Below are positions 33,335-33,974 of a stretch of 33,974 nucleotides of DNA, piece by piece. The notes under the pieces were generated by a model that did no database searches, was not told where the DNA came from, and was given only the letters and a program-made list of their open reading frames with translations. The stretch's first letter is position 1. Every line of letters starts with the position of its first letter. The position numbers and the translations under genes are program-made. Origin of the DNA: Aquificaceae bacterium (GTDB lineage Bacteria > Aquificota > Aquificia > Aquificales > Aquificaceae); the NCBI GenBank assembly GCA_026981975.1, contig JALSHV010000001.1:1-33974 (forward strand). Direction: 5' to 3'.

Positions 33335-33404
33335 AAGTTCTTGATTTTTCTAAAAAAATTTAGAACCCTGACACAGATCATACCGATTTTAAAATCAAGA
33401 ACTT
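33335..33404. repeat. 14-bp perfect inverted repeat in the leader
   Basis: AAGTTCTTGATTTT (33335-33348) and AAAATCAAGAACTT (33391-33404) are perfect inverted copies 42 bases apart. A second inverted repeat, TTCTAAA-N4-TTTAGAA, lies just inside the left arm. Confidence 0.7.
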
Positions 33405-33425: not shown

Positions 33426-33445
33426 GAAGGGTTTAGATACCCTTC
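33426..33445. repeat. Hairpin in the leader
   Basis: GAAGGGT and ACCCTTC form a 7-bp stem around the loop TTAGAT. Confidence 0.55.
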
Positions 33446-33478
33446 CGGCTCCTTGGCAACTGAATAGGGTGTTTTTTA

Positions 33479-33593
33479 TCAAAGTGTTGGGAGAGTAAGT
33501 TTAGCAGGAAGTTATTGATATGCCTGTATAATTTAACCAACAGGGTTAATTGCAAACAATTCTCACTCCCAACACTTTGAATTTCAATAACTT
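33479..33593. repeat. Interlocked inverted repeats before the first CRISPR repeat
   Basis: Arm A, TCAAAGTGTTGGGAG (33479-33493), pairs with CTCCCAACACTTTGA (33566-33580). Arm B, AAGTTATTGA (33509-33518), pairs with TCAATAACTT (33584-33593). B opens inside A and closes outside it, the order of an H-type pseudoknot. TTAACC/GGTTAA (33533-33549) sits in the inner loop. Confidence 0.65.
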
Positions 33594-33604
33594 AATTTCT
33601 TACT

Positions 33605-33974
33605 GTTGCATTAATCCCTAGAAAGTGAGGGATTGCGACAATGTTCCAACTGGTCCTATTCTTTCTTTACTTTTGTTTTGTTGCATTAATCCCTAGAAAG
33701 TGAGGGATTGCGACTTGTGTTGAAACTTAAGCTTTAAGTTCTTCATGACTTACCGTTGCATTAATCCCTAGAAAGTGAGGGATTGCGACCTGAACGGACG
33801 ATAGTCCGCACTCCAGAATCTTCTCCTGTGTTGCATTAATCCCTAGAGAGTGAGGGATTGCGACTCTTAGCCAAGGACAAAGCTTTGTCCTTGGCTTTTT
33901 CTCGAAGTTGCATTAATCCCTAGAAAGTGAGGGATTGCGACTTTCAGTGTCTCTGTCTGTCCACTCCATCGCAA
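33605..33974 (+). CRISPR. CRISPR array, five repeats, continuing past the window
   Basis: Five 35-base repeats lie at 33605-33639, 33680-33714, 33755-33789, 33830-33864 and 33907-33941. Each begins GTTGCATTAATCCCT and ends AGGGATTGCGAC. Four are identical; the fourth has A to G at position 19. Complete spacers are 40, 40, 40 and 42 bases, and a fifth (33 bases seen) is cut by the window end. AATCCCT and AGGGATT form a 7-bp stem with an 8-base loop, and the last 8 bases, ATTGCGAC, would be the crRNA 5' handle, as in type I/III systems. No cas gene is in the window, so the type is unproven. Confidence 0.98.
33869..33900 (+). terminator. Terminator-like palindrome inside CRISPR spacer 4
   Basis: AGCCAAGGACAAAG (33869-33882) is followed directly by its exact reverse complement CTTTGTCCTTGGCT (33883-33896). 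The T-run 33896-33900 comes next. This has the form of an intrinsic terminator on the plus strand and fills most of the 42-base spacer. Confidence 0.75.

Follow-up and report, generated by a model that had tools for sequence, protein, structure and literature searches.

The fourth spacer of a CRISPR array in a genome of the Aquificaceae has the sequence and predicted fold of an intrinsic terminator, oriented to act on leader-driven transcription, and the leader of the same array carries an element that by its sequence is an rRNA-type boxA with a boxB-like hairpin. The explanation that we favor, to which we give about an even chance, is that spacer 4 is a captured foreign terminator causing a partial stop at about 33900 behind a boxA leader, and that it is a tolerated accident rather than a selected switch. 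The window, i.e. the whole stretch of 33,974 nt that was analyzed, is the entire contig C1 of a 29-contig, 1.61-Mb assembly; it contains five 35-nt repeats, the first starting at 33605, and ends within spacer 5. Its relevant features are as follows.

33368-33395, plus strand: possible leader promoter (CTGACA, 16 nt, TAAAAT), upstream of boxA; a consensus match only, of a kind no commoner than in shuffled sequences
33426-33445, plus strand: boxB-like hairpin, GAAGGGT-TTAGAT-ACCCTTC, directly before boxA
33447-33469, plus strand: boxA, GGCTCCTTGGCAACTGAATAGGG, identical in 16S leaders and CRISPR leaders of relatives
33605-33639, plus strand: CRISPR repeat 1
33640-33679, plus strand: spacer 1
33680-33714, plus strand: CRISPR repeat 2
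33715-33754, plus strand: spacer 2, with a weak AT hairpin (terminator score -67.6)
33755-33789, plus strand: CRISPR repeat 3
33790-33829, plus strand: spacer 3
33830-33864, plus strand: CRISPR repeat 4, with A changed to G at 33848, in the loop
33865-33906, plus strand: spacer 4, TCTTAGCCAAGGACAAAGCTTTGTCCTTGGCTTTTTCTCGAA, 42 nt, bearing the terminator-like element
33869-33896, plus strand: perfect 28-bp palindrome inside spacer 4, AGCCAAGGACAAAGCTTTGTCCTTGGCT, folding in RNA to a 12-bp stem closed by a 4-nt loop
33896-33900, plus strand: run of five T, the first doubling as the last base of the palindrome
33907-33941, plus strand: CRISPR repeat 5
33942-33974, plus strand: spacer 5, incomplete at the contig end

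Spacer 4 is unique, of regular length, and flanked by conserved repeats (33830-33864 and 33907-33941). A sequence-only reading of the window had described it as the longest complete spacer, containing a perfect 28-bp palindrome followed by five T residues. The palindrome is present and perfect, and occurs once in the whole 1.61-Mb assembly; the five T residues are there too, but only four of them lie outside the palindrome. No other complete spacer in the window is as long as spacer 4, but 42 nt is ordinary, and three of the nine spacers on contig C14 have that length. In the RNA hairpin the loop consists of the central four bases, and six of the 12 base pairs are G-C; at 37°C its predicted folding energy is -19.7 kcal/mol, with z = -5.3 relative to dinucleotide shuffles, and by extrapolation above 37°C it is still predicted to fold at 70°C (-10.5 kcal/mol), 80°C (-7.8 kcal/mol) and 90°C (-5.0 kcal/mol). 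A 12-bp stem was reached by one of 20,000 shuffles of spacer 4 and by none of 200 shuffles of a set of 217 distinct spacers taken from this genome and its relatives (26 stretches with arrays), in which the stem of spacer 4 is the longest (the next has 9 bp). The hairpin is more than a product of chance, both its stem length and its folding energy exceeding those of shuffled sequences.

The stable, GC-containing hairpin is followed directly by a U-tract, and RNA 3' ends are predicted at about 33897-33903. With a score of the d'Aubenton-Carafa type (a formula derived for E. coli, used only for comparing sites), spacer 4 reaches 22.0 in the direction of the array versus -33.9 on the opposite strand, and it alone among the 217 spacers combines a strong stem with a T-run; two others that are nominally terminator-like score -19.8 and -67.6, the latter being spacer 2, which was rejected as a terminator on that score. 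The statistics of the genome's own terminators were gathered from 467 kb, sampled as stretches and read on both strands. Seven distinct sites score at least 10, among which spacer 4 ranks fourth, with a predicted stability at 75°C within the range of the others. Because five of the six other high-scoring sites lie no more than 32 nt after a stop codon (of open frames of at least 80 codons), the architecture of spacer 4 is that of sites placed behind genes. Thus the proposal that the spacer is an intrinsic terminator is borne out as to terminator quality and as to its terminating orientation on the crRNA strand, but not as to its simply cutting off the array.

Intrinsic terminators behind genes are rare in the sampled 467 kb, at about 1% of gene ends: a simple terminator test was passed by five of 412 sampled gene ends, versus about 1.7 expected from shuffles. 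This rarity may point to mostly Rho-dependent termination. No hairpin with a T-run was found at the ends of rRNA operons checked in two genomes of the lineage. In 24 related arrays the 250 nt past the last repeat never contain an intrinsic terminator, so that apart from spacer 4 no element of this kind is seen in these arrays.

The leader element at 33426-33469, a hairpin followed by GGCTCCTTGGCAACTGAATAGGG, was absent from the sequence-only reading. A search with the leader found the 23-nt element in many copies among relatives: in genomes of the same genus it lies 80-115 nt ahead of the 16S 27F site with a hairpin preceding it (one base is changed in one other genome), and a further copy follows the tRNA in the 16S-23S spacer where that region was in reach. 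In the assembly studied here, from which the 16S operon is absent, the 23-mer occurs only in two CRISPR leaders, so the identity of boxA was judged against the rRNA leaders of relatives. It also resembles the boxA of the E. coli rrn operons, TGCTCTTTAACAA, at 9 of 13 positions. We take it to be a boxA with a boxB-like hairpin, identical to the boxA of relatives' rRNA operons and placed upstream of the first repeat. A search of Rfam with the leader returned nothing credible, and none of the solved NusB structures found with an Aquifex aeolicus NusB sequence as the query shows binding to this leader. Between boxA and repeat 1 (33479-33593) the leader also holds two crossing pairs of inverted repeats (15 nt, perfect, and 13 nt at 92%), an arrangement capable of forming a pseudoknot. 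The 8-mer TCCTTGGC, common to spacer 4 and boxA, was taken as chance, as five of the 217 spacers share some 8-mer with boxA.

The hairpin and the 23-mer, with small changes, precede CRISPR arrays of at least three repeat classes: boxA lies 135-137 nt ahead of repeats of the GATTGCGAC type, 209-237 nt ahead of most of those that resemble GTTCCTAATGT and 15 nt ahead of the GTTTATTAGGTGCC repeats, with single exceptions at 28 and 315 nt. The boxB-like stem varies in sequence and keeps its pairing in most leaders, as judged by inspection of each sequence, because the hairpins fall into two registers when aligned without gaps. The rRNA boxA is present in nearly all of the CRISPR leaders found, in a sample biased toward this result by being collected through similarity to this leader. 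An rRNA-type boxA, mostly with a boxB-like hairpin, is thus seen at near-fixed distances before arrays of at least three repeat classes across the Aquificaceae, and may be a general feature of how CRISPR arrays are transcribed in this family. Elsewhere, boxA is known upstream of bacterial CRISPR arrays (Stringer et al. 2020, as reported in PMC12691694 and PMC7862264); the literature collection searched contained no paper linking Aquifex, CRISPR leaders and boxA. Because the leader holds an rRNA-type boxA, RNA polymerase within the array is probably Nus-modified.

The array probably continues on contig C14 (nine spacers), although the join is uncertain, with at least two arrays sharing the leader: contig C27 ends in a second, 96% identical copy of the leader, adjoining cas2-cas1-cas2. 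Because the array on C14 ends in a degenerate terminal repeat, the leader is on the side of the window and the plus strand is the crRNA strand. Besides that last repeat, only repeat 4, just before spacer 4, is changed (A to G at 33848). C14 also contains two adjacent identical 42-nt spacers, a duplicated unit (491-609 of the stretch examined). On C27 (6550-8688 of the stretch examined), cas1 lies between two cas2-like genes, with a 240-aa open reading frame and cas6 nearby, right before the second leader copy, whose own array is missing from the assembly. A solitary CRISPR-like repeat with three mismatches is found on the minus strand of contig C11 (41415-41449), and its surroundings, where a DnaN-like gene accompanies unknown genes, resemble a mobile element; solitary repeats can serve as RNA anti-CRISPRs. 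Type III-A csm genes are located on contig C24, where a profile scan placed three RAMP genes above the family cut-off, and a neighboring 809-aa product with a GGDD motif was read by eye as cas10/csm1 and a 144-aa product as a csm2 candidate. Interference is probably of type III-A, judging from these genes, and because no cas3 in the assembly passed its cut-off, the array would supply crRNAs to the type III-A complex.

In the favored explanation, spacer 4 would derive from a fragment of foreign DNA that by chance included an entire intrinsic terminator, inserted by Cas1-Cas2 in the orientation able to terminate transcription from the leader. The boxB-like hairpin and boxA of the leader RNA would probably place the polymerase that crosses the array in a Nus-factor antitermination complex, and termination near 33897-33903 would be partial, with a degree of read-through that we can only infer. 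Spacers 1-3 would be expressed normally, spacer 5 and older spacers would be reduced and not absent, the self-folding crRNA of spacer 4 would presumably be poorly active, and spacer 4 would have been acquired by accident and tolerated, rather than selected as a switch. For this explanation speak a stem and score equal to those of the genome's own sites just behind genes, the longest stem of 217 spacers, and a fold predicted to persist at 70-90°C; the sharing of the boxA and boxB-like hairpin with 16S leaders of relatives, the failure to find the palindrome elsewhere in the assembly or in relatives, the reduction of intrinsic termination by the E. coli rrn complex with SuhB (PMC6614801) and the presence in the assembly of two proteins of the SuhB (inositol monophosphatase) family point the same way. 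Against it, that family is near-universal and its part in the Aquificaceae is conjectural, and no protospacer was found in any collection searched. Antitermination of the rrn type acts mainly on Rho, so that termination could be nearly complete, and the rRNA operons of E. coli themselves end in strong intrinsic terminators.

The strongest of the competing explanations, though we consider it improbable, is that nearly all transcription ends at spacer 4, so that the array yields nothing beyond spacers 1-3 and a truncated spacer-4 crRNA, all older spacers being silent. The score, equal to that of the genome's gene-end sites, agrees with this, as does the fact that antitermination is known mainly against Rho (PMC12691694). 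However, the leader contains boxA, and the E. coli rrn complex with SuhB weakens Rho-dependent and also intrinsic termination in vitro, as a reduction and not an abolition (PMC6614801). Thus the prediction of a clean cut-off after repeat 4 is too strong and is not supported as it was stated, because a Nus-modified polymerase resists Rho and the SuhB complex reduces intrinsic termination; nor can full cut-off be dismissed, because what was reported for E. coli is a lowering of termination. Apart from the last, the repeats on C14 are intact, with no decay seen, which argues against a full stop, although C14 may belong to the other array. The claim that all later spacers would be silenced can apply only to those older than spacer 4: an array grows from its leader, so the three spacers acquired after it are upstream and untouched in any case. 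If transcription stopped near 33900 and the RNA were cut in repeat 4, an 8-nt handle and about 36 nt would remain, close to the length of mature type III crRNA, and spacer 4 could then be usable as the last unit.

Less probable again is that the boxA-modified polymerase passes the hairpin almost completely, with little effect beyond a self-folding spacer-4 crRNA. The boxA and boxB-like hairpin of the leader are consistent with such a bypass, as is the finding that in E. coli an intrinsic terminator can be suppressed in a manner dependent on SuhB (PMC6614801), but read-through in E. coli lowers termination and does not abolish it. Three later acquisitions upstream show that spacer 4 has been tolerated, which is equally expected if only old spacers were lost.

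Spacer 4 is most likely a captured foreign terminator, and equal-scoring sites just behind genes make the earlier suggestion of such a capture plausible, but no source was found in any collection searched. The proposed search for the arms and T-run in the host, relatives and viruses was negative throughout: the palindrome matched only itself in 60 relatives with up to three mismatches and in 151 genomes with a variable loop; BLAST against phages and plasmids gave only partial matches (E about 0.1 or worse); and a pattern search of IMG/VR with spacers 1-4 gave no match. The joined spacers, compared with 293 genomes, matched nothing outside the array itself except short pieces that were partial or ran across a junction (29 nt at 93% being the best), and no self-targeting was found. 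No protospacer for spacer 4 appeared in any collection searched, hot-spring viruses being poorly sampled in them. A Paenibacillus hairpin among GTDB contigs has the same arms with another loop and without a T-run, and was taken as chance. It is doubtful that the palindrome was instead an inverted repeat of a mobile element (an operator, origin or recombination site) with a coincidental T-run: a perfect palindrome with a AAAGCTTT centre is also typical of binding sites, and no source terminator emerged from the relatives, phage and plasmid, IMG/VR and GTDB searches, but here, just like at the gene-end sites of the genome, a T-run abuts the stem and does so in a single direction.

The earlier suggestion of a regulatory stop gained no evidence. 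That spacer 4 is kept for limiting the expression of older spacers would fit its position and orientation and the roughly mature length of the crRNA left by a stop near 33900, but is very unlikely, given that the element is absent from the 60 relatives (up to three mismatches) and 151 genomes (variable loop) and that the 24 related arrays all lack an intrinsic terminator after the last repeat. An artefact of assembly or amplification is scarcely credible: the contig does end 68 nt past spacer 4, in an assembly broken inside the array, but the spacer has a normal length, intact flanking repeats and a unique sequence, and fold-back artefacts are usually much longer than this palindrome.

Captured terminators are a hazard built into adaptive acquisition, in that any new spacer risks importing a stop signal that silences older memories; the survival of arrays under imported stop signals has been studied for Rho. 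Here boxA is followed, about 427 nt further downstream, by a terminator-grade spacer, in a lineage that seems to have few hairpin terminators. We suggest, tentatively and as something rather unlikely, that an rRNA-type antitermination complex and a spacer-borne intrinsic terminator compete naturally in this array, and that the boxA-modified polymerase substantially reads through. If this were true, CRISPR leaders would guard old spacers from captured terminators as well as from Rho. Which signal wins, stop or anti-stop, could be tested on the natural array or a reporter. A literature search lying outside most subscription journals found nothing on intrinsic terminators as spacers.

Spacer 4 resembles known intrinsic terminators in its stem with six G-C pairs, its 4-nt loop, its U-tract and a score like that of gene-end sites of its own genome, but differs in lying within a CRISPR spacer and not behind a gene, in being a perfect palindrome, and in that its termination is a prediction. 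The leader resembles the boxB-boxA site of rrn operons in having a hairpin directly followed by boxA at a transcribed leader position, with a 23-mer identical to that of same-genus 16S leaders, but here the element stands before a CRISPR array, where Nus binding is presumed. As far as the accounts of Stringer et al. (2020) in PMC12691694 and PMC7862264 extend, boxA-antiterminated CRISPR arrays likewise have boxA in the leader before the first repeat and share this element with rRNA operons; the arrays of the Aquificaceae differ from them in lineage, in the boxB-like hairpin and in comprising several repeat classes, and the present array differs in holding an intrinsic terminator, the known hazard being Rho.
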